The position numbers were made by a program, and so were the translations under genes. A stretch of DNA of 64,000 bases from Bdellovibrionia bacterium (lineage in GTDB: Bacteria; Bdellovibrionota; Bdellovibrionia; Bdellovibrionales; JAGQZY01). The notes beneath the pieces are model-generated. The model saw only the letters and a program-made list of their open reading frames with translations. It had not been told where the DNA came from and did not search any database. The DNA lies in contig JAUICP010000006.1 of NCBI GenBank assembly GCA_030427805.1, positions 62,001 to 126,000 on the forward strand. The letters run 5' to 3'. This document shows positions 7,442-63,907 of this stretch, in pieces (position 1 is the stretch's first letter; every line of letters begins with the position of its first letter).

Positions 7442-8527
7442 CTACTTATAGTGATACTGAAGACTGATGTTAACTCCGAGGTAGGATTTTCTTTCGAGGT
7501 AAAAGCGGCCATCGATCTTACCAATCAGTCGTCCGAACCGACGCCCGTAGCCCACTCCTAGAACGCCACCCACTTTAGCCTCTTGAAGATCGAAGTTTAC
7601 AGCATCATCCACTGTTCCTCCAATGGGAACGACGACTAAGGAGTAAGTGGAATAATGAATTAAGGGACCTACTGAGGCGTAAAACAAGTTCTTACCAGCC
7701 TGCTTGATCGGAAACACAATAGACAGGTCAGCAAACACCGCAAAACCACTGGGAGAATTAGCAGCTACATCTTGTAAATACTTGGGTGCTCCAAAACTCA
7801 AAGCGACATTGAAATCCAGCACGGGACCGCTAATCAAAAAGTCAGGCCCTGTAATTCTGAAGCCAACAATTGGCAAATTCGCTTTGGCATCGAGACCATT
7901 GATATCTTCCTGATAATTATAGTACCCCGCGAATCCACCCATCATATTCATAAAATAAATCGGAGGCTCTCCATCGACATCGGGCTTAGAAAAATCTTTT
8001 TCGTCGGCAAAAATGTCGCCCGAATTATCGCGGTCATCGTCTCTTAAATCATCATCATCGTCGTCATCGAAATCGTCATCATCTCGATCTCGACTTCGAG
8101 CACTTTTCTTTTTCTTTTTGCGTTTTTTATTGGCGGTTTTCTTGCGACGCTTTTTCTTGTTCTTGGCCTTCTTTTTGCGTTTTTTCTTCTTTTTAGCTTT
8201 TTTCTTACGCTTCTTTTTCTTTTTGTCAGAGACGTTTTCAGCACCACCACTGGCCTTTACATCGACATCAATAATGGCGATGTAGCCAATTCCCTCTTGT
8301 AATTTTACTTTATAGAATTTGCCATAGTTGCCGTAGATCTTCTTAGAAACCGAGATTTTCTTGCCCTTGGCAAGATTGGTGAGGACTTCCGAATCAAATG
8401 ACGGCTCCGTAAATACGAAGGCACTTTCTTGGGTAACAATCGCAGCCAATAAACTTTGAGCCCATAGAGTCCCAAAAACTAAAACACTTAAAATGAAGAA
8501 TTTACGCAATCTAAATCGATCAAACAA
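7442..8527 (-). CDS. SH3-domain outer-membrane barrel protein with polybasic/polyacidic linker
   Basis: Function unknown. The 361 residues show a signal peptide (about 1-28, ending SLLAA), a bacterial SH3-like domain (about 32-90: FTEPSFDSEVLTNLAKG...YGKFYKVKL...GYIAI), a lysine/arginine tract at 102-146 interrupted only by a few A, N, T and S, an aspartate-rich tract at 147-167, and a C-terminal region of alternating strands ending SLQYHYK that looks like a small outer-membrane beta-barrel. SH3 domains of this kind often bind peptidoglycan, so it may bridge cell wall and outer membrane; that is inference. There is no ATG: TTG at 8527 overlaps the glycosyltransferase stop by 8 bases, and a TTG at 8509 giving MRKFFILSV is an alternative. 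Confidence 0.72.
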   Translation of the reverse strand: MFDRFRLRKFFILSVLVFGTLWAQSLLAAIVTQESAFVFTEPSFDSEVLTNLAKGKKISVSKKIYGNYGKFYKVKLQEGIGYIAIIDVDVKASGGAENVSDKKKKKRKKKAKKKKKRKKKAKNKKKRRKKTANKKRKKKKKSARSRDRDDDDFDDDDDDDLRDDDRDNSGDIFADEKDFSKPDVDGEPPIYFMNMMGGFAGYYNYQEDINGLDAKANLPIVGFRITGPDFLISGPVLDFNVALSFGAPKYLQDVAANSPSGFAVFADLSIVFPIKQAGKNLFYASVGPLIHYSTYSLVVVPIGGTVDDAVNFDLQEAKVGGVLGVGYGRRFGRLIGKIDGRFYLERKSYLGVNISLQYHYK

Positions 8528-33066: not shown

Positions 33067-34245
33067 TTAGAACATGAACTTTCCGCTCACTGTAGCGAAG
33101 TAGTAGTCGAATTCTTCAACCGGATTTCCGAAAGTTGGATTCACAAAAGATTGAAGAACTTCAGAGTCCTGTCGGAACGTGATGTTTGTCATGTAAGTAA
33201 AATCAGCACCGATAACAAAACCGGGAGTTACTTCCATTTCTCCACCGACCATAAAGCCCATATCAAAAGCGTTTGAAGACGTATCACCACTGGCGATAAC
33301 AAACTGTCTGTCAGTGTAATCACGACGAGTGAATGACAAAGCAGCACCTACAACCGGAGTGAACTTCGTAGGAAGAACACTATACTTAGCGATTCCAGAA
33401 AAGTTGTACTGATCCATCTCTTTAAAAGAAGGGAATGGATTAGCAAATCCAGTTTGATCAACCACTTCGATATCGTAGTTAGAGTATTTAAAAGAACCTT
33501 CAAAAGTAAAACGGTTTGGCAATTTCACTCCAACACCAAATCCAGTAGCCAGATTACCACGGATGTTAATGACATCTGGGTACTCAGGAAGACCAACGTT
33601 CGCGAAAACGTAAAGCTGCTCAGTGGCTGGCTCTTCTTCATCTTTTAAGTCAGAAATCGCTGAGCGAATTTCTTCTTTAATGTCAGTAGCGTCAACTTTT
33701 TCTACAACAGGTGCTTGTTGAGGAGCTTGATACTGAGGCGCTTGATAAACAGTCGTCGTTTTTACAGGATACTGATTCTGGCTGTACTGATCGCCATCAT
33801 AACTGCTTGCTGAACCATTTAACTTATCGCCGAAAAGTCGTTGCGAACGAGCTCTTTCATCTTCCATACGAGACTCTTCAAGCTTCTCAACAATCTTTTG
33901 CTCAGTTTTAATTTCGAGATTTTCTCTGGCCTTACGCAATCGCTGAGCACGAGACTCAGAAAGTGGTGAAGCTTCAATGAAAGTCGTCGGTTGTTCTTGG
34001 ACTTGTCCTTGGTAACCTTGAAAATCTTGCTGCTGGTTATTCATGATCACAATTTTGTTTGATGAATTAGCGTCACCTTTTTTCTTCTTCATTTTTTTAA
34101 GCTGGCGCGCTTTGATTTTTGACAACGGCTCATTGTATTCCGCTTCGTATTCATCTTCATCGTATTGGCTGCCATATTGTTGAGCCTGTGCCAGTGCTGC
34201 AGGAACAAAAATAGCGAGCATGAGTAGAACTTTAAAAAACTTCAT
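33067..34245 (-). CDS. Outer-membrane beta-barrel protein with coiled-coil N-terminal region
   Basis: 392-residue exported protein. Signal peptide 1-19 (LLMLAIFVPAALA), an acidic Tyr-rich stretch, a basic KARQLKKMKKKKGD segment, a charged helix likely to form coiled coil (ESRAQRLRKARENLEIKTEQKIVEKLEE), a Gln/Tyr-rich linker (YQAPQYQAPQQAP), and then about eight strands (ATGFGVGVKLPNRFTFEGSF, GAALSFTRRDY, GFMVGGEMEV, FVIGADFTYMTNI) ending YYFATVSGKFMF with terminal Phe. An OmpA-like small barrel with a periplasmic stalk is likely. ATG follows GGGGAG. Function unknown. Confidence 0.75.
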   Translation of the reverse strand: MKFFKVLLMLAIFVPAALAQAQQYGSQYDEDEYEAEYNEPLSKIKARQLKKMKKKKGDANSSNKIVIMNNQQQDFQGYQGQVQEQPTTFIEASPLSESRAQRLRKARENLEIKTEQKIVEKLEESRMEDERARSQRLFGDKLNGSASSYDGDQYSQNQYPVKTTTVYQAPQYQAPQQAPVVEKVDATDIKEEIRSAISDLKDEEEPATEQLYVFANVGLPEYPDVINIRGNLATGFGVGVKLPNRFTFEGSFKYSNYDIEVVDQTGFANPFPSFKEMDQYNFSGIAKYSVLPTKFTPVVGAALSFTRRDYTDRQFVIASGDTSSNAFDMGFMVGGEMEVTPGFVIGADFTYMTNITFRQDSEVLQSFVNPTFGNPVEEFDYYFATVSGKFMF

Positions 34246-45996: not shown

Positions 45997-47294
45997 TTCG
46001 CGCACTCAAAATCATTACTCTACTGAGCCTTTTTCTTGTAGCGAGCGCTTCGGCTCAGACTGATGATAAGGCAAAAATCGAAAATGAAGAGAGTGTCGCG
46101 ACCCCTAAAGAAACCTCTGAAGCCAGCCCCATAAAAAATCAAAAAAGAATCCCAAAAAATACCCCAAAAAACACCAAAGACTCGAAAAATAAATCAGTGC
46201 CGTCGGCGCAAATCACATCTGGAAATATAAAACTCGAATTTTACCAACCCTTTCTTGGCTTGGGCACTAACAAGAAGTTTGTTGACGTGGTGATCACCGG
46301 AAAGACGCTCCCATACTCGACCGTAGAGTACTCTCCGGATATTATCCGAATTCTCGATGCCTCTGTTAAAGAAGTTAAGGTTAAAAAAAGCTTTATGCCC
46401 ATCCAACAAACACAGGCGAATTCTAAGGGCGAGTTTCAACTCCAAGTTATTCTACCCAAGGGAGCCTATCAAATTCCGATCAAAGTAAGAAAGGGTTCGC
46501 AAAACGCTTCTTATCAACTGATTCTCGAAATCAGTCCTGAAAAAATTATTGCTAACACTCCTACCTTAGCGGGCAAGTCTCCTTTTTTAAAAACAAATCA
46601 ACTCTCGGTGGGCTTAGGGGTTAACTTTGTTCTCTTTAAACAAGACTCCAATTATCCCTCGAGTACGACGTTTCAGAGTATTAATCTCGGGGCTTTTTAT
46701 ATCGATTACTGGAAGCAACTTTCGAACGAATATCAAGTGCTTTTGACAGCAAAACTCACTCCCGGCGAAACAGCCTCTTCAGAGCAAGCCCAAGTCCGGG
46801 ATAAAACTTTTAATTGGATTATGGCTTCGGCGACCGGAGTTTACTTTCCACAAAAGTTTCGCTACAAACGCCCGAACGACACTCTGAGAATGGGTTTCCA
46901 GGCGGGTCTGCAGTACCACTCCGTACCTTTTATAAATATTCTCAGCGAAACTCCCAGCGTTGTTGAGGTCAATAATAACCAAATACTTTTTGGCGCCCTG
47001 GGTATGCACTTTGAGCTTGAACAGGCGCGCACCTTTTTATACGAAATCTTTTTTAGATTACAGTTTCCGCTCTATTCAGAAAATGTTTTTAATCTCGATT
47101 CAGCCTATGGAATCGAAGGCTCTATTGGCCTAGAAAAGTATTTGGGAAAAAGATGGAGTATCGGCGCTTTCTGGTACGGCGTTTTTCATTGGTACACCTT
47201 TAGTCAAAACAATACGTCCTTGTCGCAAAACCTAAAGGGCGACATTTACCTCTTTTACTCAAACGCTGAATTTCGCGTGGGTTATCGTTTTTAA
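45993..47294 (+). CDS. Outer-membrane barrel protein with basic linker, coupled to the phosphatase
   Basis: 433 residues. Signal peptide 1-21 (LLSLFLVASASA), a Lys/Asn/Pro-rich linker (KNQKRIPKNTPKNTKDSKNK), an Ig-like domain (about 68-190, FVDVVITGKTLPYSTVEYS ... YQLILEIS) and a barrel of long strands (LSVGLGVNFVLF, INLGAFYIDYW, YQVLLTAKLTPG) ending AEFRVGYRF with terminal Phe. The start overlaps the phosphatase stop by 4 bases, so it is part of the signalling module, perhaps its outer-membrane arm. The stop abuts the adhesin stop on the other strand. Confidence 0.75.
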   Translation: MIRALKIITLLSLFLVASASAQTDDKAKIENEESVATPKETSEASPIKNQKRIPKNTPKNTKDSKNKSVPSAQITSGNIKLEFYQPFLGLGTNKKFVDVVITGKTLPYSTVEYSPDIIRILDASVKEVKVKKSFMPIQQTQANSKGEFQLQVILPKGAYQIPIKVRKGSQNASYQLILEISPEKIIANTPTLAGKSPFLKTNQLSVGLGVNFVLFKQDSNYPSSTTFQSINLGAFYIDYWKQLSNEYQVLLTAKLTPGETASSEQAQVRDKTFNWIMASATGVYFPQKFRYKRPNDTLRMGFQAGLQYHSVPFINILSETPSVVEVNNNQILFGALGMHFELEQARTFLYEIFFRLQFPLYSENVFNLDSAYGIEGSIGLEKYLGKRWSIGAFWYGVFHWYTFSQNNTSLSQNLKGDIYLFYSNAEFRVGYRF

Positions 47295-50200
47295 TTACTC
47301 AACCGAAGCAGGGGCGCGACTCGAAGACGCCGAAAGCGCTTCCATCATGGCTTCGAGACGATCCATGCGGTTTTCTAGGCTCTCGTTCTTTTCTTTTAAT
47401 GACTTGATCTCTTGATCCTTTTTGTTCAACTCTTCTTTGAGTTTTGCGATCTCAGAATTTTGCTGAACATCGGTCGAAGAAATATTGATATACACATTTC
47501 CGCTTGCTAAGGCAAAACCCAGAGGTGCACCGTCATTGGCATAGGCAAAACCATTATGATAGTAAACTTGATCGGATTGAACCGGAAGTTGTCCAACAAG
47601 ACCAACGAGAACGACATTATCTTGATTTTGTAGTTCAGCATTACCGATCACACCGGGGTTGGTAGATACAATACCAAGAAGGGCATCACCCTTTTGGTAG
47701 CCACGGGCGAGTCCTGTAGCGGGGTTCAAACCAACCAGATCACCTGGCTCTAGCTCTTCTTCTGCGGCAAAGTATTCCGCGTAATCGGCACCTTCTGAGT
47801 TGTAGGCCACAGCTGATATCTCACCACCAGCAGGCACAGTACTACAGGTCCCATCGCCGGTAACACAAAGTCCTTTACCGGCTCCAGAGCCATCAATGTG
47901 GACAAGGGAATCGGGAGAAGTCGTTCCAATACCAAAGTTTCCTGATACATCGATGCGCATTCGCTCAGCGTAGGATGATGCGCCCGTTTGCTGAACCCAG
48001 GCGTAGGATGGAGAGTAAGTGCCTGCTCCAGAGTTCGAGAAGGCTCCCGTAAAGAAATACTGATCATTGGCTGAATTTCGTACATTGTGGGTTATAAAAA
48101 CTGAGTTTGAATCAACAAACCAACTGTTTTCTAAAAAGAGATGATGGTCCGGAGCAGACCCAGGAGTGTACGCAGTATTTTTGCCTTTAGTAACAAAGAA
48201 GTTACCACTTTTAATGTCGGCAGAAAAATTACCCGAACCAAACCCACCGGCTCCATCTCCGACTTCTAGAAGAATACTTCCTCCAGTATTCGAAGCGGGG
48301 CCCGTCGAATCTTGAGCGTAAAGCTTTATTCCTTTACCCTTCGTACTAGCCGGAGCCGCCGAAGGCTCGACGTGCAGTATAGAATCAGGAGCTGCTGTTC
48401 CAATACCAACGTCACCGTCGGCATCGATGCGAAGAGACTCAGATCCAGAGTTAGAAAATGCAATTTCATTAGAGGCTGGCGTGAAAAGACCTGTATCGGG
48501 ATCGTTTACAAATGTGAATGCGGGGTTGGCTTCGACACCGGCAGCAGAGCGCATAGCAGCCGAGCCAAAATCTTTACCTTCAAATCGGTTTTGATTGACT
48601 TCAAACTTCATACTTCCCGCAGCAGTAAAAGCCATTTGATCCGCGGCAATTCGATAAATCCCTAAATCTTCATCTCCGTCAAAAGTGATCCCAGGTGCTG
48701 CGGCTGTACCAAAATCAGCTGTGAACTGACCAGTCATTGGAATCGTACCATCCGCCAGAAAATCACCACTTCCACCACCGGCGGCACTCCACGAAAGTAC
48801 ACCTGATCCATTGGTTGTTAAAACATGCCCGTTTGATCCATCAGCCGCAGGTAACGTGTAAGTCTGGGTCCCGGTTACTGTAGCTGGCGCCTTGAAACCG
48901 ACGTATTCACCACCCGTTGCATCTTGTAAGCGAAGTTCTTTTTCGGCCAAAATATTAGTGTGTCCCGAATTATCAATGGTCATACGTCGATTTGCTTCAG
49001 CGCTTCCATCGGTGAAAAAACTAATCGAACCGGAAACTCCGTTGCTTCCAGAAAGAGATAAGCCGTTAGTACCACTGGCACTAATCAACGAAGAGTTTGG
49101 AGAATTAGCACCCGTGCCAGTACTACTTGAGCTAATTTGTGTAAATGAAAAGTTCGCCGAGCTCGTACCTAAAATCATTTGCGAGTCAGCATTGGCTCCC
49201 GCAGTAAAGTTATCGACCCTAAAGGTCGTCGTTGCATTTTGATCTTTTCTAACATGAAGTTCTTCTGTTGGATCGACACCAATACCGAGGCGTCCAGTAC
49301 TATCGAGAGTCATTCTTTCGGTCGCACCTGTTGCAAATGAAATCTCGTCGATACCAGATCGATACATTCCCGTATCGTCATCTCCATAGAAGGCAAACGA
49401 AGGCTGAGCCGCTCCACCCGGCGCCGCCATACTAATTGAAGCCGCACCCGTTCCGCCACTACCATATAAAAAGACGGCGTCCATGACCATCACAGCTGAA
49501 TTATTGCGCTCAAACTCTAAGTCAAATCCATCGTTCGTACCGATCGTCATGGTAGCACCAAAGGAGTTACCATTATTATTGACATCACCACTTCCGCCAC
49601 CGGTGGCACTCCACGAAAGCACACCAGAGCCGTTTGTCGTTAAGACTTCACCATTAGAACCATCGGCCGCTGGTAGAGTGTAGGTTTGACTTGTCGTTAC
49701 CGTTGCTGGAGCCTTGAAACCAACGTATTGGCCACCGGCAGCGTCTTGCATTCTAACTTCATTTTCTTTGAGTAAATTAATATCTCCCGATTCTGTTATT
49801 AAAACAGCATTTTCAGATGACGTCGTACCACTTGGAGTCACACTGAAACGCAAGCCCGTACCGCGGTCTGTGGCATTGAAGTTTTCAATGGCAATGACTT
49901 CCATTCCACCACCCGTATGCCAGTTGGGAGTCGTATTATAAGCGCCAAGTCCTACAAAACTTGCCAGGACATCGCCCGTTTGGGTTTCTGTCGGTAAAGC
50001 TTTTGTTCCCCGACTGGTTCGACCAGCAAACGTAGGAGCACCGAGAATCGTTGCACCCTTATGATGATCGACGATGAAGCCAGGGTATCTCGCAACAGTT
50101 GAATCTGTATTTGTTACTTTAACTGCGACCGTCGTATCGGTTCCCTCTACATGGAGCTCCTCTTCGGGAGCGGCAGTACCAATTCCGACATATCCCGTTG

Positions 50201-53200
50201 AGTAATCCCAAGTCTGAAAATATCCGCCAGAGTTATTTCTAATATGCAGGTCTTCAGTGTCATTACCGCTAAAGCCAAAATGCCATTTATCGAAGGAGGC
50301 TTGTCGGAAGCGCACTCCCATATCGTATGACCAATTGTTATTTTCGAGAATTAAGTCGCCTTCACCATTGACAGTGTGACCACTGTAGACATGGAACTTG
50401 GCTCCAGGTGCTCCATTTCCAATCCCAACATTGCCGTCGGTATCGACAAAGACGCCTTCACTTCCACCATCGTTACTGAGGTAGTTTCCGTTTAAGCGAA
50501 TGTTGCCCGTCATTGACACGGTACCATTCGCTAAAAAGTCACCTGCGCCAGTCGATTGCCATGATAAAACACCACTGCCATTTGTAGAGAGAACTTGTCC
50601 GTTGGTTCCGTCGGCTGGTGGTAATGTATAAACACCAGATCCAGTAACCGTCGCCGGCGCTCTAAAACCGGTATACTGGCCGCCAGAGTCATCTTCGAGG
50701 CGAAGATCTGTACTCGAGTGAATGGCCACATAGTTATCATAGGCAATTGACATCGCTGTTCGTGGCACACCTTGATCCGTTACATTGAACTTAAGGTCAG
50801 CCGTACGATTGGCGTCAACGGCATTGGTCCAAGAAGAAGAAATATTTGCTTGCTCACGCATGAGGCTGGTTGAAGTTTCAGCCTTAAAAGTCATCTGTGC
50901 ACCAAGGCCTGGTCCACCCCCAGCGCCTCCATTTTCAGCTTCAAGAGATAAAATTTCATAAATTGCGTTTGTTAAATCTTGCTCTTGTACAGTAAGGCGC
51001 GATGATGGAGCCTCTGTACCGATACCGACGTCAAGATCCTTGGTGATCCGCATGGACTCGTTATAACCTGTAGCAGCCGTTTGTTGTCCAAAGACTAATT
51101 CTGGGGTGAAGGTTCCGTCGTTTGAAACAGCACCTATATAGGCCGTTTGTTGAGTTCCCGTGCTATTTTCGACACTAAATACGGCTAGCGAGGCGGCACC
51201 CGCATTTTCAGAAGTGTTTTCAATCGAAAGAGTTGGAGCATTAGGAGTGTAAATGGCCGCACTACTAGAGACATAACCACTATTGATCGAATCGTTAATA
51301 TGAACAGAGGATAAAAACGTCGTATAATCCGGACCAAACCAAATGGAGTCGGCACCATTTGAACTATAGGCCGTCCATCCATCGCCCCCCATGTTATAAA
51401 ATCCGGTATCTTGATCATTTGTATACGAAAGTGAAGGTGCCGCAGCGGATCCATCTGGCAGGTCGAGTTGCCCGGTCATAGCGACACTACCATCGGATTC
51501 AAAGTCTCCACCCGAAGCTGGAGTTGTCCAAGACATGACTCCTGTACCATCGGTCGTTAAAACTTGCCCGTTGGTTCCAGGGCCATTTGGTAATGTAAGG
51601 TTTGTGTCAGCCGTTACATCGGCTGGAGCAACGAGAGCGACATATTCGTTGGTACCAGTATCGTAAAGGCGAATACGATTGTGATCGAGCATATTAAGAT
51701 TACCGTCGTCACCGAGTTCCATTTGTGTTTTGGTGGAACTCGCTCCAACTTCGCGGGTGATAAATTCTAATTTAGTAGGCGCGCGATTGGCTCCAGTGTC
51801 GGCCGTCGCCGTCGCTTGAATTCCCGCAGCTCCTCGGTAAGTACTAGAGGTATCATAAGAATGAAAGAACAAAGACCCTACTTTATCGCCAGTCAAAACA
51901 GGTGTTAGCGTATTAGCATCTCCTCGACTTCGACGTAAAATTAAATCCGGGCCTTGGTTGAATATATCGTTGTGCCCATCGAAATAAAAATCTCTATTAT
52001 TGTCATCTGTAATATGTACAGCACCAATGGGGCTCGGATTAAATATACCGAGTTGAGCCGTATCCCGTTCAGCGTGAAGTACCGTTTTTGAAGTTCCTGC
52101 TTGAATTCGATTCAACTGAAAAGAATTATCCGATTCATCGTGGTGAACCATCTCAAAACCATGATTATAGTTACCACTATTATAGCCACGCATACTGATG
52201 CTTATATTCGTATCATCAACATTACCATTGAGTTGTAAATTGGGGTTGGTCCCTTCAATATGAAGAATCGAACTCGGGTCAACACCAATACCGACACGGC
52301 CAACACTTGTAACACGAACCCGTTCAGTTCCACCCGTCGTAATCGCCACATTGTCAGCAGCCGGGCTAAAGAAACCGGTATTGGCATCAGTGCCAAAACT
52401 AATACCAGGATTCCCTTGGTTACCTAGTATGGCGTCAATTTGCCCTGTCATTGCCACTGAACCGTCAGATTCAAAGTCACCGCCACCACCAAGGCTCGAC
52501 CACCCTAGTTGACCCGTACCGTTGGTAGAAAGTACCTGACCCGAAGTTCCGTCCGCAGGAGGTAAAGTCCAAACAGTCGTAGTCGTCACGTCATCTGGTG
52601 CACGTAGCCCCACATAATCTGTTCCAGCCGAAGCATCCAGTTCGTATAGGTAAAACTGGCCACCATCACCGGCAGCTGTCCCTTTCGGATCAATCTGAAC
52701 AACACCGTCTACCTGAAGTTGCGACTGAACCGAACTACTAGAGAAGTCACCAATCCCCACCTTACCATCTTTTTGGATTTTGACAGCTTGGGTTTCACCA
52801 CCCGCTCCACTATCAACCCAAAAGGTCATGTCTGCTGGAATGTTTGCACCACTCGGAGTTCCGTTAACTTCCATCTGTATATAACCAGCTGTGTAGTAGT
52901 CCGGACCACCGGTGTTTTCGAAACCTCGGAACATAAAGGTACCGATGACATCGTTATCAACAACGGATGTGGGCGCACCTACAGTTCCATTTTGCCTTGC
53001 CACGGCGATGGAACTCTCAAAGGCTGTGGATATATTGTATTGTTCAGTAGCGCCAGCAGACAAAACGGTTAACTCCCTAGTCGGAGTAGTAGTACCGATT
53101 CCTACTTGTCCCGATGAATTGATCGTCATCGCGTCAGCTCCGCCAGTTACAAATGTCAATTCATCGGCTGTGTCAGAATACAGACCCGTATCCGAATCAG

Positions 53201-55193
53201 CTGCAAAAGAGTAAGATGGCTGGGCCTCAGTTCCGTTACTACCACGGAGTAATACGGAATCAGTGCCCGTTCCTCGAAGACCACTGTTAGTAACGTAAAA
53301 TCGTCTCGTACCACCAGTGGTAAACGCAATTTCATTGGCACTAGAACTATAGATACCTGTATCAGCATCCCCATTAAAACTAATACTTGGAGCTGCATTA
53401 GTACCCTGCTCTAAGTTCACAATTCCATTATTATTTAAATTTAGATCACCGCTCATTGCCACAGAACCGTCGGATTCAAAATCACCTGTACCAACAGAAG
53501 CCCAACTAAGTACTCCACTGCCGTTCGTTTGCAGAACTTGTCCGTTTGTTCCGTCGGCTGCAGGAAGCTCCCAAATTATGGATGCAGCATCACCAACGGC
53601 ATCAGGGGCGCGGAATCCAACATAGTCAATTCCACCCGCTCCAATGTTTGCCGCAAGTTCTTCAAAGACAATAGCTCCACCTTCTCCAGCTGCAGTCCCT
53701 TTCGGACCAGAAACGATGGTCCCTTCGACATCGAGTTTTTCGATAGGAGACGTTGTACCAATTCCGACATCTCCAGTTGAGGTAATGCGCAATCTCTCTG
53801 CAGGAGAGCTACCATTTTCTCGTGTGGCAAAAGAGAGATAACCCGCATAATTACCACTAATCGCATTTTCTTTTAATCCACCAATGTTAGCAAAGTCCCT
53901 CATTTGCACGCCGTCAGAGCCGCCGAAACCGAGAGTTCCACCGACTCCAACACCTTGAGCAGAATTAGAATTAATACTGACTAAACCTCGAGCTGTCGTA
54001 ATCGGTACAGCCGTACCATTCACCTCAAGAAGCGACCCTGGGTTATTGGTTCCAATTCCAACCTCTCCAGTCGCATCCACAAATACACCTTCATTACCAC
54101 CGTCACCACTCAAATAGTTTCCATTCAGTGGAATGTTACCTGTCATGGCAACACTACCGTCAGATTCAAAATCGCCACCGGTTGCATCGGTCACACAAGA
54201 CCAGGCATAAACGGGACCGGCACTCATTTGTAGTTTCTCAGAAGCCAAACAGTTAGGAACGGCGTCAGCACCCATGGCATCACCTGCTGCAGTACCAATA
54301 TCAAAACCACCAATGACTTGGGCCGCAGCACCATCCCAGATTTTGAGTTCATCACTTGTTGAATTATACCAAGTCACACCTTCATGGCCTGCCGTTAACC
54401 CCGGAGGATCAGTCGCATAAGTCCCAAGGTGTAAGTAGGTATTAGCTGACATGGTAATAAAACCGGAGTTGAGAATGTCATTTCCACCCATGTCGATATC
54501 GCCCGTCATAGTTCCACCGGCCAAAGGAAGTTTTGTTGCATCTGTAGCCGTCGGAGTATTAGCGACCCAGGTCGTTCCATTCCAAGTCAGAACTTTTCCG
54601 ATATCAGCTCCACCGGCCAAACCCGAGAGGCTTGCCGAATCGGCTGCAGCTCCCCCGATGTAGGTATCTGAGTAATTCTTTGTAGCAGCGTCTGTGGCGT
54701 TGGTAGGATCCGCTAGATTTTGCAGGGCTTGGTTATTGAAATCGACGGGAGCTGTCGGCGTAAAGTTGGCTCCAGCCGGGTCTGCGTACTGGGCACTCGT
54801 ACCGTTAATCAGGTTCATGAGTTCGGTGTAGTTTCCGCCACCAAATACATTTTGTAAGTTGGTTTGATCGATGTTGTTAGCGCCATCTACGGATAAAAAG
54901 TCATTTGCTCCATGCCCTTCTAACTTTGTGGCATAGCGAGCGTAGGGTACCGAGGCCATGTTGATGTTTTCAGAAAACTGAATAACACCCGTACCTTCGT
55001 TGATCGTTAAACGAATGGCGCGTGCATCACCGGGGGCAGCATCATAAGCTGTTCCCGAATCACAGGTCAAAGGAGTTACATTCCCTAAACCATTATCAAA
55101 GGCTTGATCGAGTGTTGAAGTATCTTCGTAGTCCGTTCCAGCCCTTGCACCAGAACCCACTTTTAAGTTGAAAACTCCGGCAGATGTCGACAT
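47295..55193 (-). CDS. Giant tail-fibre-like surface protein (main open frame)
   Basis: 2,632 residues of repeats. Eleven VGIGTxxPxxxLxV-type elements (VGIGTTSPIEKLDV, VGIGTAAPDSILHV), seven DTGxYxxxxxEIAFxTGG elements, and six junctions APATVTxxxxYTLPAADGTNGQVLTTNGSGVLSW followed by GDFESDGSVAMTG. Such repeats occur in phage-tail-like and Bdellovibrio adhesins and build trimeric shafts. The end has GADYAEYFAAEEELEPGDLVGLN and a leucine-zipper coiled coil (IAKLKEELNKKDQEIKSLKE), with no S74 autoprotease motif. ATG 55193 is only the first start in this frame; the open frame extends to about 55320 with natural N-terminal sequence and no start, so the true gene begins at 55401 behind a frameshift. 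Confidence 0.85.
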   Translation of the reverse strand: MSTSAGVFNLKVGSGARAGTDYEDTSTLDQAFDNGLGNVTPLTCDSGTAYDAAPGDARAIRLTINEGTGVIQFSENINMASVPYARYATKLEGHGANDFLSVDGANNIDQTNLQNVFGGGNYTELMNLINGTSAQYADPAGANFTPTAPVDFNNQALQNLADPTNATDAATKNYSDTYIGGAAADSASLSGLAGGADIGKVLTWNGTTWVANTPTATDATKLPLAGGTMTGDIDMGGNDILNSGFITMSANTYLHLGTYATDPPGLTAGHEGVTWYNSTSDELKIWDGAAAQVIGGFDIGTAAGDAMGADAVPNCLASEKLQMSAGPVYAWSCVTDATGGDFESDGSVAMTGNIPLNGNYLSGDGGNEGVFVDATGEVGIGTNNPGSLLEVNGTAVPITTARGLVSINSNSAQGVGVGGTLGFGGSDGVQMRDFANIGGLKENAISGNYAGYLSFATRENGSSPAERLRITSTGDVGIGTTSPIEKLDVEGTIVSGPKGTAAGEGGAIVFEELAANIGAGGIDYVGFRAPDAVGDAASIIWELPAADGTNGQVLQTNGSGVLSWASVGTGDFESDGSVAMSGDLNLNNNGIVNLEQGTNAAPSISFNGDADTGIYSSSANEIAFTTGGTRRFYVTNSGLRGTGTDSVLLRGSNGTEAQPSYSFAADSDTGLYSDTADELTFVTGGADAMTINSSGQVGIGTTTPTRELTVLSAGATEQYNISTAFESSIAVARQNGTVGAPTSVVDNDVIGTFMFRGFENTGGPDYYTAGYIQMEVNGTPSGANIPADMTFWVDSGAGGETQAVKIQKDGKVGIGDFSSSSVQSQLQVDGVVQIDPKGTAAGDGGQFYLYELDASAGTDYVGLRAPDDVTTTTVWTLPPADGTSGQVLSTNGTGQLGWSSLGGGGDFESDGSVAMTGQIDAILGNQGNPGISFGTDANTGFFSPAADNVAITTGGTERVRVTSVGRVGIGVDPSSILHIEGTNPNLQLNGNVDDTNISISMRGYNSGNYNHGFEMVHHDESDNSFQLNRIQAGTSKTVLHAERDTAQLGIFNPSPIGAVHITDDNNRDFYFDGHNDIFNQGPDLILRRSRGDANTLTPVLTGDKVGSLFFHSYDTSSTYRGAAGIQATATADTGANRAPTKLEFITREVGASSTKTQMELGDDGNLNMLDHNRIRLYDTGTNEYVALVAPADVTADTNLTLPNGPGTNGQVLTTDGTGVMSWTTPASGGDFESDGSVAMTGQLDLPDGSAAAPSLSYTNDQDTGFYNMGGDGWTAYSSNGADSIWFGPDYTTFLSSVHINDSINSGYVSSSAAIYTPNAPTLSIENTSENAGAASLAVFSVENSTGTQQTAYIGAVSNDGTFTPELVFGQQTAATGYNESMRITKDLDVGIGTEAPSSRLTVQEQDLTNAIYEILSLEAENGGAGGGPGLGAQMTFKAETSTSLMREQANISSSWTNAVDANRTADLKFNVTDQGVPRTAMSIAYDNYVAIHSSTDLRLEDDSGGQYTGFRAPATVTGSGVYTLPPADGTNGQVLSTNGSGVLSWQSTGAGDFLANGTVSMTGNIRLNGNYLSNDGGSEGVFVDTDGNVGIGNGAPGAKFHVYSGHTVNGEGDLILENNNWSYDMGVRFRQASFDKWHFGFSGNDTEDLHIRNNSGGYFQTWDYSTGYVGIGTAAPEEELHVEGTDTTVAVKVTNTDSTVARYPGFIVDHHKGATILGAPTFAGRTSRGTKALPTETQTGDVLASFVGLGAYNTTPNWHTGGGMEVIAIENFNATDRGTGLRFSVTPSGTTSSENAVLITESGDINLLKENEVRMQDAAGGQYVGFKAPATVTTSQTYTLPAADGSNGEVLTTNGSGVLSWSATGGGSGDVNNNGNSFGATMTIGTNDGFDLEFERNNSAVMVMDAVFLYGSGGTGAASISMAAPGGAAQPSFAFYGDDDTGMYRSGIDEISFATGATERMTLDSTGRLGIGVDPTEELHVRKDQNATTTFRVDNFTAGANADSQMILGTSSANFSFTQISSSSTGTGANSPNSSLISASGTNGLSLSGSNGVSGSISFFTDGSAEANRRMTIDNSGHTNILAEKELRLQDATGGEYVGFKAPATVTGTQTYTLPAADGSNGHVLTTNGSGVLSWSAAGGGSGDFLADGTIPMTGQFTADFGTAAAPGITFDGDEDLGIYRIAADQMAFTAAGSMKFEVNQNRFEGKDFGSAAMRSAAGVEANPAFTFVNDPDTGLFTPASNEIAFSNSGSESLRIDADGDVGIGTAAPDSILHVEPSAAPASTKGKGIKLYAQDSTGPASNTGGSILLEVGDGAGGFGSGNFSADIKSGNFFVTKGKNTAYTPGSAPDHHLFLENSWFVDSNSVFITHNVRNSANDQYFFTGAFSNSGAGTYSPSYAWVQQTGASSYAERMRIDVSGNFGIGTTSPDSLVHIDGSGAGKGLCVTGDGTCSTVPAGGEISAVAYNSEGADYAEYFAAEEELEPGDLVGLNPATGLARGYQKGDALLGIVSTNPGVIGNAELQNQDNVVLVGLVGQLPVQSDQVYYHNGFAYANDGAPLGFALASGNVYINISSTDVQQNSEIAKLKEELNKKDQEIKSLKEKNESLENRMDRLEAMMEALSASSSRAPASVE

Positions 55194-56616: not shown

Positions 56617-57654
56617 ATGAAGTTAGATAGAAGAATTCAAATTTTACACCTTATCATTTTGGCTATTGTCATTAGCCTCGCGTCTTCCCATGCCGCTTAC
56701 TCGCAAACGCCCGATGCCTCACCGAAAACTACGACTATCGATTATTCGCAAAAAGCCCGATCTTCTAAGAAAAAGCTCTACGCTCAATCGAAAAAGCGTT
56801 TTAAAAAACGAAGTCGTAAAGCCAGTCGTCGTTTACGAAAAAAACGGAGCTATAAATCCAGCAAGAAAACTTTTGTCGTCAAACGACCTAGCCTGAAAAG
56901 CCAAATAAAGCGAAAAAAACAACAAAAGTTCTCCCTAGCCTTTTCTACAACCTATTCTGAATCTTCCATTAATTTTCAAGATGGAAGAGATAGCCAGAGT
57001 CTTTCGGGGCAACTCTCAGCTGGCTACCAGTTTCATAAAAACTTTAAACTGGGTGCTAGTATTGATGGCTACCAGGACCTAAACAAGCGATCTGAAGATT
57101 ATGGTGACCTCCATGCCTTTGACCTCAACGGGCAGCTTCCAGGGCTCATCCCCAAAATGGCTGCATGGCATACCCTGACGCCAATTCTTGGTTTGAGCCT
57201 GCCTCTTAGCAAAACTCTGACAGAATATGACTCCTTAAACCTCTCTTTGTCGGCGGGGTTATCCAACCTTATTCGCATCCCTAGTACGAAGCTTTCTTTG
57301 AGCTACTTGATTAACTACGCCCGAAATATTCACGAATTCGAAGAATCCCTCCGAGGCTTTGATAACAAACAACACATACTTACTAACAGCTTTGGTGCAA
57401 GCTACCAGATTTTGGACAAGCTTTCTCTTACTCTCAACTTCGCACTGAGTAGTCGATGGACCTATGAGTCGGTTTACGATTCTGTTTTCTCATCGAGCCA
57501 GACATTAAAGTACAACCTTCACAAAAATATGAGTTTAAAGTTCGGTCACATGAACAGTGGACAAACCCTCCACTCCGATGGTCGCTCGAGCAATATACAG
57601 CTTTATAACGAAAACTCTTCGGGAGTTTTCTTGGGGATTAGCGCATGGATTTAA
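56617..57654 (+). CDS. Outer-membrane barrel protein with Lys/Arg/Ser-rich linker
   Basis: 345 residues. Signal peptide about 1-29 (LAIVISLASSHAAYS), then a basic stretch from about 47 to 108 (ARSSKKKLYAQSKKRFKKRS ... KSQIKRKKQQ) without acidic residues, then roughly ten to twelve amphipathic strands (FSLAFSTTYSESS, LSGQLSAGYQF, LSLTLNFALSS, SLKFGHM) ending GVFLGISAWI. The end is not the usual Phe. Its TAA overlaps the ATG region of the metalloprotease gene, so the two are coupled. Function unknown. Confidence 0.75.
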   Translation: MKLDRRIQILHLIILAIVISLASSHAAYSQTPDASPKTTTIDYSQKARSSKKKLYAQSKKRFKKRSRKASRRLRKKRSYKSSKKTFVVKRPSLKSQIKRKKQQKFSLAFSTTYSESSINFQDGRDSQSLSGQLSAGYQFHKNFKLGASIDGYQDLNKRSEDYGDLHAFDLNGQLPGLIPKMAAWHTLTPILGLSLPLSKTLTEYDSLNLSLSAGLSNLIRIPSTKLSLSYLINYARNIHEFEESLRGFDNKQHILTNSFGASYQILDKLSLTLNFALSSRWTYESVYDSVFSSSQTLKYNLHKNMSLKFGHMNSGQTLHSDGRSSNIQLYNENSSGVFLGISAWI

Positions 57655-60600
57655 TGAAGAAACTTCTAAGCAAAACTCGATTGATGGTAATAGCATTGCT
57701 AGCAATGGGCCTTATTTCGTGTACCGAAAAAAGACCCGCCAAGTTCCCGGATGGGGCTGGCGACAATATCTTTTCGATCAGCACTCTAAAGAAAATGCGA
57801 GTCACTGGCAGCACCGGACAAGAGGCCGATGCCCGCATCTATCAAAGTAGAAATGTGTTTCGCCCACAAGTTTTAAGTCAATTCCAAGCTTCGAGTGTAC
57901 CCGGAGCCTTAAAACCCCTTTTTGACGAGCTTTACCTAGAAACGAGCACTGGCCAATCACTTGAATTCAACCTTGAGGTGAACGAGAAATACATAACGGT
58001 TTACCAGGTTCTTAATGAAGAGGTCGCCGCTCACATTAGAAACAAAGCCATCGTATCGAGCCACAATAACTCCCAGGTCTATCCTGCCTTCATGTACCGG
58101 GTCCAATCCTACGGTAAAACTAAAAGAATCAAAAACACCATCGACGAAGAAACGAGTCTTTTACGCCTTCAAGAAACATCTTGGGAAAACGCAACCCACC
58201 TGAGATTCTCACCTTCCGTAAGAAGTCGAATCATGGTGGACTTCCCTCAAACCATTAAACCTCAAATGTTTGGACTCGAGCAGTTCAACGGAATTCAGTT
58301 TGAAGTCACTCTTGCTGAGTCCGAAGAGATGTTTAAGGAGAGTCCCTCATTCGGTAGACTCCTTCCCGTAGCCAGTAGTAGTGCTCCCGAGCAGATGAAA
58401 CTGCTTCTTGATGAACTCTATCTTCCTGGAACTCCAGGGGAGCAAATTCAATTAAAAATCGCATTTGATAGCTCCTATATGACGGCCTATAAAGTCAGTA
58501 GCAACCCTGAAAATCTTTCGTCCATTCAGCAACAAATCAGTATTCAATCTGAAGATGGAAAGACCATCACTCCCCTTTTTAAAGTTCCCGTCATCTCTTA
58601 CGGAAAAGTCGCACAAATAAAAGATGATCAAGGATTCAAAGGCCCCACTCTTTACCTAGAAGAGTCGAGCTTTTCTGAGGCAAGTCACGTACAAATTCCC
58701 CTGAATAAAGACCGCAGGCTCGCCGTCGACATGCCCCTTAACACCGATGATGCCGGCAGAGAAATTCTGAACTCGCGGGATTTCGACCAGCGCATTTTTA
58801 CGGTCGGACAATTTGAGAGCGTGTCGGGTCTAAATATCAATTTAGATGATAATGCACGAATATTAACGCGCACATTTAGCAGTGGCCTTTATATTTTTAA
58901 AATAACGACTCTCAATGATTCGAGCATTACTGAGCGCAGAAGGCAGCTTCTCGCTCAAGGTCAAGATCAAGAGAGAATCCGTCGATGTACCCCAGAAGAA
59001 GCCTCTCAGTCAGGACTCAATCCCGGCAATTGCGTGGTTGTTATATCTCATAGAGTTCCCATCCAACCCATTGAAGTCTTTTTGCCTTCAATTCAAGCCG
59101 ATAATGATATTCAATCTCCCACTCTTTCAACAAGACGGGCGCTCAATCCGGGAGCTCAGTTTTTAATGATTATCGATTCGAGTGCCACTCCTGAAGTTAT
59201 TAGAGATGGTCTCACGGGTGACCTCAGAAACACCCTCATCGTCGATCAAATGAGAAATCAAGAATTTCTTTTTAGAAGAACACTACTCGATTCTCCAAAT
59301 CGCTTTCCACTGACCTTTCCTGGTCTCAATGGTCAACTCGAGATCGTGAAGTTTTATTTTGAAGAAGAGCGAGTCGTAGTAAAAAGAGCCTATGCTCTCG
59401 ATCCCCATCCTAATAATACAGAAACGGATTTTGAAGAACTCATTTCCCTTCCAGCTCGTTATTATGTTCGAAGGAACCAAAACGAACGGGGCGAAGACCT
59501 CTGGTCTGATGAATACATCGAGAGTTCACCCCAGGCTGAAGGTGCAATCGCCATCATCGACTGGAGACAAAATACAATTCCAATCGTTGCCTCTCCCCTT
59601 TCTTACTTTGGGGCAGGTCAGTGTTTAATTCGCCAGGCGAATAGTACTGTGGACGATATTGACATGCGCCTACCCTCTGATGGAGTTCTTAACTTCTCTC
59701 TTGAGGGAACCTATGCCGTTCACCCTTACCCCGGTTGTAGTTACCAGTGGCTGACCTCTGGCTTAATTCATTATTGGTATCCGTCACAAGCGAACTTTAC
59801 CTTCAAGGAACGTATCTCTTTTAAAAAGTATAATGGAGAAAACGACGTTCCCGACATCGAAGCCATTCCCTACGAGGCCCAACGTCGGCTCGGATACGGT
59901 ATTTTCACATTTAGAGGCAAGAATCCCAATGAGTACAATAATATCGGACGCATTGGCACAAGACCACCCCTTCAAATGCAGCATAGTTTTAGAAATGGCA
60001 AAGTTATTACCTATACTCTTGCAGGTCTTCCGACCAATGATGGGCGTCTGCGCGCAGGCCTTATTGAAGCCACTCAAAGTGTCATCGAAGACTGGAACAG
60101 AACCCTTAAGAAGGCTTTTAAAGACACTCCCCTTGAGCGCCAGGGTAACTACTTGGCTCTCGAAGTTCTAGAGGACGATTCGGCCCAACTGGGTGACCTC
60201 GATAAGAACTTTATTTACTGGCTCGACAAAGATCTTCGCATGAAAGTTCTAGGAATGGTTAACCCTTCTCCGAATCCGCGCTCTGGAATTTTTGAAAATT
60301 CAGATGTCATGGTTTATGGCGGAAACATTCGCAACGTTTTAGAATGGGAAAAGGATCGCGCTCTCGCCCGTAAAGAATACAACGAAAACATGAAGTATCG
60401 AGAGACCATTGAACGTCTGAATCAACTTGAAGATATCCAAGAACAAATCGATGAGGAACGTCGCGAAAGAGTCCGTCAGGCGGGCGAGAGAATGCGCGCT
60501 GAAATGGAAGCTCTTGAGGCGAGAAGAGATGGCGAGGCTGGCGACAGCCAAGAGGTCGCTATCCCTTGGTATTCTGATATGGATTTCACAAGCTTTAATC

Positions 60601-63032
60601 CAACTATCAATTATGTAGAGCGACTCGACACCCTTCCACAAGAGAGCCGAGATCGAAACATTTTTCAGGCAACTCTTAGTATGAATAGAAATTTGCTGGA
60701 TATTAGAAGCCTCGAGGTTCCGAACCATCAAGTAGGCACTGAAGACCCTAAACTTAAAAGAGAGCTCTTCTTACTCAGGACTTTACAAAATACCCTCGAA
60801 GAAGGCGCACTGACTGACGAAGCAAAAATTGGAGAAAGCCTCGGTCGTGAATTAATGGAATACATCCGCACCAGTGAGCGTTTGGATCAAAATACAAAAC
60901 AAATGGCACTTTTTGAAATTCAAAAAGAACTTTTCACCAATGAAGTTATTAAAAATATTAATTCTGGCCACACGGTCCTAGAAACCAAAGAAATCGGCTA
61001 TTCGGAGCGCTATATCGATGGTAATATTACCGACCTTTTAGTTTCAAGCTATCGCAAGACTCTGAGCCATGAACTGGGCCACGCCTTCGGCCTTCGTCAT
61101 AATTTCTTGGGTTCCTATGACAAAAAGAATTGGAACTTTGATGACGAAAACCCCGAAGAGGTCAACCGTAACTACACCACAGTTATGGATTATATTTCAG
61201 ATGCCCATCTAGAGTATAACGGCCCCGGCCCCTATGACGTTCAAGCGGTTCGCGCGGCCTATACGGGACTTCTAGAGGTTGATCAGAGTCGAATAGCTGA
61301 TAGTGAACAAAATTGGAATATCGTTAACAATCGTTTTATTCAGATTTCAGATATTAAAGAACAGCTCGATCTCGAGCACTGGGAAGAAATCGAAACCTCA
61401 CATATTAGGCAGATACCCAACAAGCGTTATATGTACTGTAGTGATGAAGATACTCGTCGCTCGCCTATTTGTAATCGTCATGATCTCGGCACGACACCCG
61501 CTGAAATCGTGAGTAATGTTATTGATGACTATCACGCCTTTTACAGCCTTACGAACTTGCCAAAGGATCGCATTAACTTTCAGTGGTATCAAGTCTATCG
61601 CTACATCTATCGGCTCTACTTTTATTTTATTCGTATTAGGCACTTTCTTGACGAAACAGCCTTCCGAATTCGTAGCTTACAGACTGAGGCACAAACACGA
61701 AGCGAAACTGATCTCGGCTTGCGCATGCAGTTTGGTGCCATCGAAGACGAATTTGGTTCAGCGGCAATACTTGGTCGCGACTTTTTCCATTCGATTATTC
61801 GAACCCCCGAGCTAAATCCTTTACTCGATATCGAAAATCGCTTTAAAGAAGTCACAATTCAGCCTCAGGATCTTCCGGAAATCACCTATGTTGTCGAACG
61901 CAAACCTTCGAGAGATCAGTGGCTACAAGGTTCATTGGGACGCCTTAAAGTCAGAGGAATCGAGTTTGATCAAGTGATTGCCATGATGATGCTCACTACT
62001 CGACGCATTGGTATTCCCGAGTACGATCAGCAACTCGTTCGATTCTCCTACCCAGATTTGGAAAAAGTAATTTCAGGAAGCGCATTTGAATCTGATACCA
62101 TTCAGTTAATCATATCGATTCTCTCCGAGAGACTCCGGCCTGCCTTTTTAACGCCGCAAAAGACCCTAGAGATTGTCCCCGATGCAACTTTTTCAGCCTC
62201 GTCCAGTGAACTTGTCCGCATCTACTCGGTCATTGCTGCGATGGTTATGCTCGACACCAATACAATTGAGGCCACTGACAATTTTTCTAGCTTCTTTCGC
62301 TTTGGCAGTATTTTAGGTCACGAAAGCGAACGACTTTCTGGAGTTCCAATGCTCACACAACTTGGTGCGAACCCAGACTCTATCAATACCCTTAAGTATT
62401 GGCCATTTGATGGGGCCATCGGATCTTATATGATTCACAGGCAAGCTGCTAACCTGAGATTTATGATCGAGCACGAAAACGAATTCCGTCCGCGCTTTAA
62501 AGAGTATTTTATTACCCACCTCAGAAAACAAAAAGCTGAACAAGAAATTCGCGCCGGAAGAGAAGAGGAAGTTTACACTCTCGATGGTGGTGCAACTCAA
62601 ACAGAACTCGAAGCTCTCGACGAGCGAAAAGAACAAATTCGAAACGCCATCAATGAAGGGCTTAGGAACTTTCCAGAAAATACTGGATCGAGAGAGGCGC
62701 GGCTTTTCCTCCAAGAAATGGACAAGCTCATTCAAACGGCCGTCCAGGTCGTTGAAATTCAAGAGGATGACAATGTTCCTCTCCAAGAAAAATTTGAGTT
62801 TATACTGGCCCAGCAAAACCGTATTAAGAATTTTATTCGCCTCAACCCAGGCATTTGGATTGCCTATGCGACTCTACTCAAGGACGACCTTGGCCTTCCG
62901 AGACCATTAAAGAATGCTCTAAGTATTCTATTGAGCGAAAGCTTTATGGAGCTTCAGTACGCATACCTATTTAGTAATATCCAATTTATGAATATGTTTC
63001 TTTACTTTACTCACCCGGAGTACGTTCAATGA
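57645..63032 (+). CDS. Giant metzincin-type zinc metalloprotease lipoprotein
   Basis: 1,795 residues. Lipoprotein signal VIALLAMGLISC (Cys26). Residues about 83-205 and 245-368 are a clear internal duplication: SSVPGALKPLFDELYLET and SSAPEQMKLLLDELYLPG, YRVQSYGKTKRIK and VPVISYGKVAQIK. A charged coiled-coil stretch lies near 900-970. The protease core has HELGHAFGLRHN from 1142 (HExxHxxGxxH, three His ligands) and the Met-turn YTTVMDYIS with M1181, like the DUF4953 zinc-dependent metalloproteases, which are much shorter. ATG 57645 has GGGGA eight bases upstream; ATG 57654 is an alternative. The stop overlaps the next gene. Confidence 0.88.
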   Translation: MDLMKKLLSKTRLMVIALLAMGLISCTEKRPAKFPDGAGDNIFSISTLKKMRVTGSTGQEADARIYQSRNVFRPQVLSQFQASSVPGALKPLFDELYLETSTGQSLEFNLEVNEKYITVYQVLNEEVAAHIRNKAIVSSHNNSQVYPAFMYRVQSYGKTKRIKNTIDEETSLLRLQETSWENATHLRFSPSVRSRIMVDFPQTIKPQMFGLEQFNGIQFEVTLAESEEMFKESPSFGRLLPVASSSAPEQMKLLLDELYLPGTPGEQIQLKIAFDSSYMTAYKVSSNPENLSSIQQQISIQSEDGKTITPLFKVPVISYGKVAQIKDDQGFKGPTLYLEESSFSEASHVQIPLNKDRRLAVDMPLNTDDAGREILNSRDFDQRIFTVGQFESVSGLNINLDDNARILTRTFSSGLYIFKITTLNDSSITERRRQLLAQGQDQERIRRCTPEEASQSGLNPGNCVVVISHRVPIQPIEVFLPSIQADNDIQSPTLSTRRALNPGAQFLMIIDSSATPEVIRDGLTGDLRNTLIVDQMRNQEFLFRRTLLDSPNRFPLTFPGLNGQLEIVKFYFEEERVVVKRAYALDPHPNNTETDFEELISLPARYYVRRNQNERGEDLWSDEYIESSPQAEGAIAIIDWRQNTIPIVASPLSYFGAGQCLIRQANSTVDDIDMRLPSDGVLNFSLEGTYAVHPYPGCSYQWLTSGLIHYWYPSQANFTFKERISFKKYNGENDVPDIEAIPYEAQRRLGYGIFTFRGKNPNEYNNIGRIGTRPPLQMQHSFRNGKVITYTLAGLPTNDGRLRAGLIEATQSVIEDWNRTLKKAFKDTPLERQGNYLALEVLEDDSAQLGDLDKNFIYWLDKDLRMKVLGMVNPSPNPRSGIFENSDVMVYGGNIRNVLEWEKDRALARKEYNENMKYRETIERLNQLEDIQEQIDEERRERVRQAGERMRAEMEALEARRDGEAGDSQEVAIPWYSDMDFTSFNPTINYVERLDTLPQESRDRNIFQATLSMNRNLLDIRSLEVPNHQVGTEDPKLKRELFLLRTLQNTLEEGALTDEAKIGESLGRELMEYIRTSERLDQNTKQMALFEIQKELFTNEVIKNINSGHTVLETKEIGYSERYIDGNITDLLVSSYRKTLSHELGHAFGLRHNFLGSYDKKNWNFDDENPEEVNRNYTTVMDYISDAHLEYNGPGPYDVQAVRAAYTGLLEVDQSRIADSEQNWNIVNNRFIQISDIKEQLDLEHWEEIETSHIRQIPNKRYMYCSDEDTRRSPICNRHDLGTTPAEIVSNVIDDYHAFYSLTNLPKDRINFQWYQVYRYIYRLYFYFIRIRHFLDETAFRIRSLQTEAQTRSETDLGLRMQFGAIEDEFGSAAILGRDFFHSIIRTPELNPLLDIENRFKEVTIQPQDLPEITYVVERKPSRDQWLQGSLGRLKVRGIEFDQVIAMMMLTTRRIGIPEYDQQLVRFSYPDLEKVISGSAFESDTIQLIISILSERLRPAFLTPQKTLEIVPDATFSASSSELVRIYSVIAAMVMLDTNTIEATDNFSSFFRFGSILGHESERLSGVPMLTQLGANPDSINTLKYWPFDGAIGSYMIHRQAANLRFMIEHENEFRPRFKEYFITHLRKQKAEQEIRAGREEEVYTLDGGATQTELEALDERKEQIRNAINEGLRNFPENTGSREARLFLQEMDKLIQTAVQVVEIQEDDNVPLQEKFEFILAQQNRIKNFIRLNPGIWIAYATLLKDDLGLPRPLKNALSILLSESFMELQYAYLFSNIQFMNMFLYFTHPEYVQ

Positions 63033-63907
63033 AAAAACTTTTATCCATCCCCTTACTACTGCTATTGTCTTCAACAGTCTTCGCTGTGGACCTAGAGAGT
63101 ATAACCGAATTCCCCTTTGTAGAATGTGGGATGCAGTTTAACCGCGTCTTTGTCGAGTATGAACAAGGTGGCGATATGAGCGAAATTGAACTGACCCAAA
63201 GTGAAAGTCGCATTCAAAATATGATGATCGGAAAACACGAGTGGTTTGTTCCCAGTGTCGAAGAACATTCCGGTGGACGATTGGGAGGAGCTGGTCAAGA
63301 GGATGCCGCCTATAAAGTCAGCATTATTCTCAACCTTCACCTCAATAGTTCGCAATGGATTCGCTACGGCGGAGAAGGCAGCCCAAGGGGCCATCGATTA
63401 AAGGCCTATATCACTGTCTCTAGACGCTTAGAAAATGGTAAATACAAAACCGTGGCCCGAGGTATGCGCGATAGTGATGAGATTTGGACTAAAACGCAAC
63501 TGACCGAGGTCAGCGCTAACCGTATGGTTCAACACGTCTTTCGCGCCATCAGAAACCCCGAGGTCTTTGATTACATCGATCCCCAGAGTGAAAAGTACGC
63601 CCTTGGCGACAATAACGATGTTCTTCTTCAATTCGAAAGAGAAGGTCCCGAATTTGGTGTTGAGGCTGCTGGGCAAGCAGGCATTTTCCCAAAAGCACTT
63701 TTTGATAACGTCAATGTCTTCTGTAACGGTGTCTATCGACAAAATGCCATTGCTGAAGACTTGTGGCTCGTGCTTGGTGTGAGCCAATCCGGTGAACTCA
63801 GAAATGCCCCCCAAGGAATCAAAGATATTTGCGAAGCCAAAGTCCCCGAAGTGGATATGGACTTCTTTACAGAAACCTATGGAACGACAGAAGAGCGAGG
63901 AAACTAA
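63029..63907 (+). CDS. Exported protein coupled to the metalloprotease
   Basis: 292 residues. Signal peptide 1-19 (LLSIPLLLLLSSTVFA), then strand-rich sequence with FPFVECGMQFNRVFVEYEQGG and VSIILNLHLNSSQWIRYGGEG, three further-spaced cysteines (VFCNGVY, DICEAKV), and an acidic end. Not recognised. Its ATG overlaps the protease stop by 4 bases, so it is made together with the protease; an inhibitor, substrate or partner role is possible but unproven. Confidence 0.68.
   Translation: MKKLLSIPLLLLLSSTVFAVDLESITEFPFVECGMQFNRVFVEYEQGGDMSEIELTQSESRIQNMMIGKHEWFVPSVEEHSGGRLGGAGQEDAAYKVSIILNLHLNSSQWIRYGGEGSPRGHRLKAYITVSRRLENGKYKTVARGMRDSDEIWTKTQLTEVSANRMVQHVFRAIRNPEVFDYIDPQSEKYALGDNNDVLLQFEREGPEFGVEAAGQAGIFPKALFDNVNVFCNGVYRQNAIAEDLWLVLGVSQSGELRNAPQGIKDICEAKVPEVDMDFFTETYGTTEERGN

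Follow-up and report, generated by a model that had tools for sequence, protein, structure and literature searches.

The window analysed here, a 64,000-nucleotide stretch of a Bdellovibrionia genome, contains an open reading frame (56617-57654, forward strand) for a predicted outer-membrane barrel protein, referred to here as 56617. The protein begins with a signal peptide (56617..56706, forward strand), called by a home-made rule which leaves the cleavage site uncertain (residues 24-30), and continues with a strongly basic linker (56749..56931, forward strand; residues 45-105) that directly adjoins the predicted β-barrel (56932..57651, forward strand; residues 106-345), itself neutral with a net charge of -2. 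According to the ORF translation, this linker coincides with the segment that an earlier note had marked at 56740-56940. Its 61 residues include 30 K/R (20 K and 10 R) and no D/E, and its best 30-residue window has a net charge of +18; the linker charges given below are likewise those of the best 30-residue window, taken on the whole protein and on the mature part. How good is the case for a barrel? In Pfam the region matches BBP2 (0.0023) and OMP_b-brl (0.0036), both weakly and under cut-off, 12/22 members of the family end in F/Y, and a search of the family profile against the PDB gave no match.

The gene does not stand alone. It is followed by a gene for a metzincin-like lipoprotein of 1795 aa (57645..63032, forward strand; Pfam DUF4953 Met-zincin, PF16313, 6.1e-8, above cut-off), whose lipobox is apparent on inspection and also fits a simple pattern, and then by a third gene (63029..63907, forward strand) for an exported protein of 292 aa which belongs to no Pfam family and is also present in G001, the genome of the same genus used for comparison. 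The three genes probably form an operon. A metzincin-like ORF lies 3′ of the barrel gene, within about 1.5 kb of flank, in 17 of the 26 loci of the 56617 family (E<=4e-39; own locus and G001 counted), with two further loci matching weakly and seven not at all; the metzincin profile was built from first-round matches, and for those the E-values are optimistic. The gene pair, at 56617-63032 in the window, is conserved across the order. Homologues of 56617 itself occur in 22/39 genomes, own included, and the 20 rows that come from outside the genus all show a gap in place of the bulk of the linker (the alignment omits L022, in which no start was found, L023, and the genus paralogues L002 and L025). 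The barrel thus belongs to a conserved two-gene unit, and its linker is most simply taken as having been added later, within the genus. Elsewhere in the window (47295-55193; also L183) lies a giant protein of 2632 aa with a C-terminal region resembling Peptidase_G2 (weak, 0.0019) and then a coiled coil; the G001 region that matches it does so in several partial matches in different order, suggesting tandem or rearranged copies.

Basic linkers in other exported proteins

Is 56617 an isolated case? The earlier note had listed four barrels with a basic linker in the window, namely 7442, 33067, 45993 and 56617. The most extreme is 7442, encoded on the reverse strand, in which the signal peptide is followed by a bacterial SH3 domain (8276..8425, reverse strand; residues 35-84; Pfam SH3_3 1.7e-5, below its cut-off), an extremely basic linker (8093..8230, reverse strand; residues 100-145; 29 K, 6 R and 1 D; net charge +26), an acidic D-rich stretch 3′ of the linker (7982..8083, reverse strand; residues 149-182; 19 D/E) and a predicted barrel (7445..7972, reverse strand; residues 186-361; net charge 0) which is conserved order-wide. 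Within 7982-8230, 35 K/R are thus followed within a few residues by 19 acidic residues, an unusual block-charged linker that is kept in G001; the D-rich stretch could offset part of the basic charge in cis. The family of 7442, defined by an SH3_3-type domain and a conserved C-terminal barrel region, has matches in 35/39 genomes, own included. SH3_3 is found in 27/30 aligned members at E<=0.01 and a C-terminal F/Y in 23/30, few members have a Pfam barrel match, and the family profile retrieves weak matches from the PDB, some of them SH3-bearing peptidases (best 7.5e-4). The N-terminal region of this family reaches +11 at most in 28 rows from outside the genus, versus +26 in the two genus members.

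The other two proteins are different. The stretch in 33067 (34039..34128, reverse strand; residues 40-69; +9) lies in a protein that is acidic overall (net -15), and that in 45993 (46122..46211, forward strand; residues 44-73) reaches +7. Both are at background level, as +9 is attained by 44/331 and +7 by 110/331 of the exported proteins sampled from the same genome. Two of the four listed barrels therefore keep their place, and the position assigned to the linker, between signal peptide and barrel, is accurate for 56617, while in 7442 the SH3 domain intervenes between signal peptide and linker.

The design does recur independently outside the window. The sample of the genome covers about 1.11 Mb including the window, about 1.04 Mb of it outside, and the screened set comprises the 331 exported proteins without transmembrane helices, window included. 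Genes, signal peptides, transmembrane helices and likeness to a barrel were all called by home-made rules; on known E. coli exported proteins the export rule called 14/14, and the C-terminal barrel rule passed ompF, ompC, ompW and tsx and failed ompA and elfC. A charge of +10 is reached by 25/331 proteins and +14 by 6/331, and within this sample the latter are concentrated among barrel-like proteins (4/41 versus 2/290 other exported proteins, p = 0.0026). The four are 7442, 56617 and two proteins of contig C3, both on the reverse strand and both at +16: C3:376790, a Pfam barrel (OMP_b-brl_2 at 7.9e-14, above cut-off), and C3:30294, in which the linker is accompanied by a small folded N-terminal domain and PF13505 falls on both sides of its cut-off, slightly above with 28.9 bits when the genome was searched and slightly below with 26.8 bits when the protein was scanned. 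Close relatives of these two are found in the genus only, with any match at E<=0.001 in 8/39 and 5/39 genomes, respectively.

The two non-barrel-like proteins at +14 are one of 211 aa, presumably TonB-like, and one of 1166 aa. The latter has, behind its signal peptide, a very basic region some 110 residues long and, with a neighbouring YkuD gene, might be an enzyme-substrate pair (G000:C11:185624-190462, where G000 is the own genome; L154, L155). In the same locus L155, the apparently cytoplasmic ORF C11:191675-192316 (reverse strand), presumably HIT-like, has its N terminus extended by a K-rich stretch; proteins that are not exported can thus carry such extensions too.

Distribution among genomes and conservation of charge

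The earlier note had suggested that basic linkers may be a general anchor in this lineage, an idea that a lack of enrichment relative to other Gram-negative proteomes would refute. For comparison, 400 kb were sampled from each of three genomes of the order: G016 and G011, termed Bdellovibrio-type on kinship labels, and G004, which belongs to the same family as the own genome. With the window excluded, 22/314 exported proteins of the own genome are at +10 or above, versus 0/102 in G016 and 1/110 in G011, and 200 kb of E. coli K-12 gave 0/40; G004, with 7/96 at +10, is on par with the own genome (p = 0.64). The basic-linker trait is thus real and comes in degrees: it stands out against E. coli and the Bdellovibrio-type genomes, though not against G004 when all exported proteins are counted. 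Further exported proteins in the family have it at moderate strength. As a trait of the lineage it holds at the level of the genus and not of the order: orthologues of 7442 and 56617 occur order-wide, and among them strong linkers are confined to the own genus. A basic shift of the whole exported proteome was considered and rejected, as exported proteins average a net charge of -1.07 per 100 residues in the own genome versus -0.42 to -0.70 in three others.

Barrels defined by Pfam (PF13505) give a similar picture. At +8 the own genome has 7/27 versus 1/57 in other genomes of the order (p = 0.0012), at +10 4/27 versus 1/57 (p = 0.035), and at +14 the enrichment is not significant (3/27 versus 1/57, p = 0.10); these p values, like the others given here, refer to each cut-off singly, several having been tried. 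Leaving out the barrels of the window gives 5/25 at +8 (p = 0.009), 3/25 at +10 (p = 0.08) and 2/25 at +14 (p = 0.22), and restricting the own matches to E<=1e-3 gives 5/19 at +8 versus 1/57 controls. The own set derives from 33 matches at 30 loci, with L207 dropped for its stops and one duplicate reading frame counted once; its 27 members still include one gene twice (L209/L213, once read past its stop) and hence 26 distinct genes. As controls, G016/G011 contributed 30 loci out of 37 matches and G002-G004 another 30 out of 55, of which 28 and 29, respectively, encode a signal peptide; as loci were taken best-scoring first, the controls lean towards better Pfam scores, and 55 matches in G014, G026, G018 and G028 lie outside the comparison. 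The set does not include 7442, which the Pfam search missed. The sole control barrel at these cut-offs, L269 of G004, has a small N-terminal domain, a basic linker and a barrel, in that order.

Is the charge itself maintained? Within the genus two genomes can be compared, G000 and G001. Between them 100/103 linker K/R codons are kept as K/R: 35/35 in 7442, 29/30 in 56617, and 20/20 and 16/18 in the two C3 proteins. When neutral change was simulated at the full rate, at 0.7 of it and at half, 55, 66 and 75 of the 103 were kept on average, with a maximum of 88 in 15000 simulations. Silent divergence is 0.32-0.58 per site in the barrel parts and lower in the linkers (0.15-0.37), which the half-rate run roughly covers. 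Because retention exceeds the neutral maximum, the positive charge of the linkers is, judging from these codon comparisons, under purifying selection. In the linker of 56617, 22/31 of the non-K/R residues are kept versus 29/30 K/R (p = 0.012), and the overall dN/dS of 0.71 describes a fast-changing segment of steady charge, as expected where selection acts on charge and not on sequence. One K/R swap between the two genomes in 7442 and another in C3:376790 suggest that charge, rather than lysine itself, is maintained. In at least four predicted barrels of one genus, then, a basic linker on the N-terminal side of the barrel is a real, recurrent and selected design.

Possible roles of the linkers

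What could such a charge be for? The earlier note had raised the possibility that the linkers fasten barrels to peptidoglycan or some other anionic polymer, and we favour a version of that idea. Several unrelated outer-membrane barrels of the genus would separately have gained a K/R-rich segment on their N-terminal side, which we infer to be disordered. In an even-stranded barrel both ends face the periplasm and so, if the predicted topology is right, the linker should lie there, where it would extend from the barrel and tie it electrostatically to some anionic surface, with peptidoglycan as the most plausible candidate and a different anionic polymer as a possible one. The segment may act alone (56617, C3:376790) or beside a folded N-terminal module (the SH3 domain of 7442, the small domain of C3:30294). 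Other predicted barrels of the genome carry folded modules in the same place: LysM in L208 (6e-8, above cut-off), a LysM-like domain in L063 (C3:123556-125004; 0.006) and SH3_3 in L200 (3.8e-5, below cut-off). LysM and SH3 are families frequent in cell-wall-binding proteins, and by analogy a polybasic linker would fit the position that they hold, either by itself or together with a module of this kind. It is for this reason that an electrostatic anchor is preferred, as a possible rather than a probable role. Counting against it are the homologous barrels outside the genus that are linker-free (20 rows of the 56617 family) or have no linker of this strength (28 rows of the 7442 family), the D-rich stretch of 7442, the equal frequency of +10 stretches among the exported proteins of G004, and the K-rich extensions of non-exported proteins. 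The idea that the linkers replace missing OmpA domains is unsupported, as the counts of such domains are normal (7 in the genus versus 9 in G004, 5 in G011 and 7 in G016).

Could the linkers instead bind lipid, or the lumen of their own barrel? Basic peptides do bind acidic lipids, and the basic segment of 56617 is joined directly to its barrel. The AlphaFold models, run on two sequences for 56617 and one for 7442, have mean pLDDT of 36.6 and 43.7 and are too poor to be informative. We regard this role as unlikely. Docking of an acidic partner is quite unlikely. Here the metzincin lipoprotein would be recruited by the linker of 56617, and further acidic partners by the remaining linkers; the lipoprotein (net charge -59) and the third protein of the putative operon (-16) are indeed acidic and the barrel-metzincin pair is conserved, but that pair occurs across the order without the linker, and docking would leave the similar linkers of three further barrels without an explanation.

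A covalent tether, in which linker lysines serve as L,D-transpeptidase acceptors and join the barrel to peptidoglycan, has reported precedents in barrels tethered by LDT via an N-terminal Ala/Gly and in LimB, tethered via an internal lysine (PMC12274547, PMC11841132). G000 and G001 have four matches each to YkuD (L,D-transpeptidase), and one YkuD gene (C11:185624-186766, forward strand) lies directly 5′ of the gene for the exported 1166-aa protein with its very basic N-terminal region. However, a third of the K/R in the 56617 linker is arginine (10/30), and swaps between K and R are tolerated; each of the seven genomes of genus g15 has 6-12 YkuD, yet the examined barrels of its member G016 show no such linker; and for C3:376790 and C3:30294 the home-made rule predicts a mature N terminus of Gln instead of Ala/Gly, those of 56617 and 7442 being uncertain. 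We regard a covalent tether as improbable. Least probable of all is a lineage-specific low-complexity growth of little function, in which K-rich extensions would come from slippage or a compositional bias and be tolerated whether a protein is exported or cytoplasmic: strong linkers do occur in one genus only, K-rich extensions are found in cytoplasmic proteins too and the linker DNA of 7442 is partly repetitive (18-base unit, 2.2 copies), but drift of this kind is weakened by the conservation of charge (100/103 K/R kept versus a neutral maximum of 88), no tandem repeat was found in the linker of 56617, and the GC content is ordinary (44%).

Relation to known systems

Returning to the electrostatic anchor, it seems plausible to regard the linkers as a genus-level variant of barrel tethering. 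The bolder proposal, a convergent, genus-wide and charge-tuned polybasic tether module, non-covalent or covalent through many lysines and unlike Lpp, OmpA and the N-terminally linked barrels, is doubtful. A limited search of the open-access literature, within the text available, found no description of a barrel with a polybasic linker. How the outer membrane is attached to the wall in bacteria without Braun's lipoprotein is an active question, and the envelopes of relatives of predatory bacteria are little studied; if the anchor is real, a charge-selected polybasic linker that recurs on several barrels would offer a simple alternative, open to test, to tethers that are covalent or rely on a domain.

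How do these proteins compare with what is known? OmpA also combines a barrel with a periplasmic part that binds peptidoglycan non-covalently; there the binding part is a folded C-terminal OmpA domain (PF00691), of which Pfam scans found no match in the four listed proteins or the two C3 proteins. Barrels of the intimin/invasin and OmpM types carry, N-terminal to the barrel, a folded LysM or SLH module that binds the wall, and the LysM and SH3 domains that precede barrels in the own genome are alike in this respect; the difference is that theirs is a folded module and not a polybasic linker. TonB has a basic stretch (the KPKPKP region) that spans the periplasm, and it is the most basic exported protein of the E. 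coli sample (+9), but it is an inner-membrane protein and not a barrel. Lpp is attached to peptidoglycan through a lysine. LimB is an outer-membrane protein bound to peptidoglycan through an internal lysine (PMC12274547). Both are lipoproteins with one acceptor lysine, whereas the proteins of this genus are barrels with a polybasic stretch. There is also a likeness to the LDT-tethered barrels (BbpA of Coxiella, the MOMPs of Legionella, the OMPs of Brucella and Agrobacterium), in which the N-terminal periplasmic end of the barrel joins the outer membrane to peptidoglycan (PMC11841132, PMC12274547), the same end of the barrel that carries the linkers here. In those barrels the link is covalent, via an N-terminal Ala/Gly, and the BbpA peptide GGPDYVPAPS contains neither lysine nor arginine (PMC11841132); the candidate tether described here is, by contrast, a K/R stretch of 40-60 residues known from its sequence.
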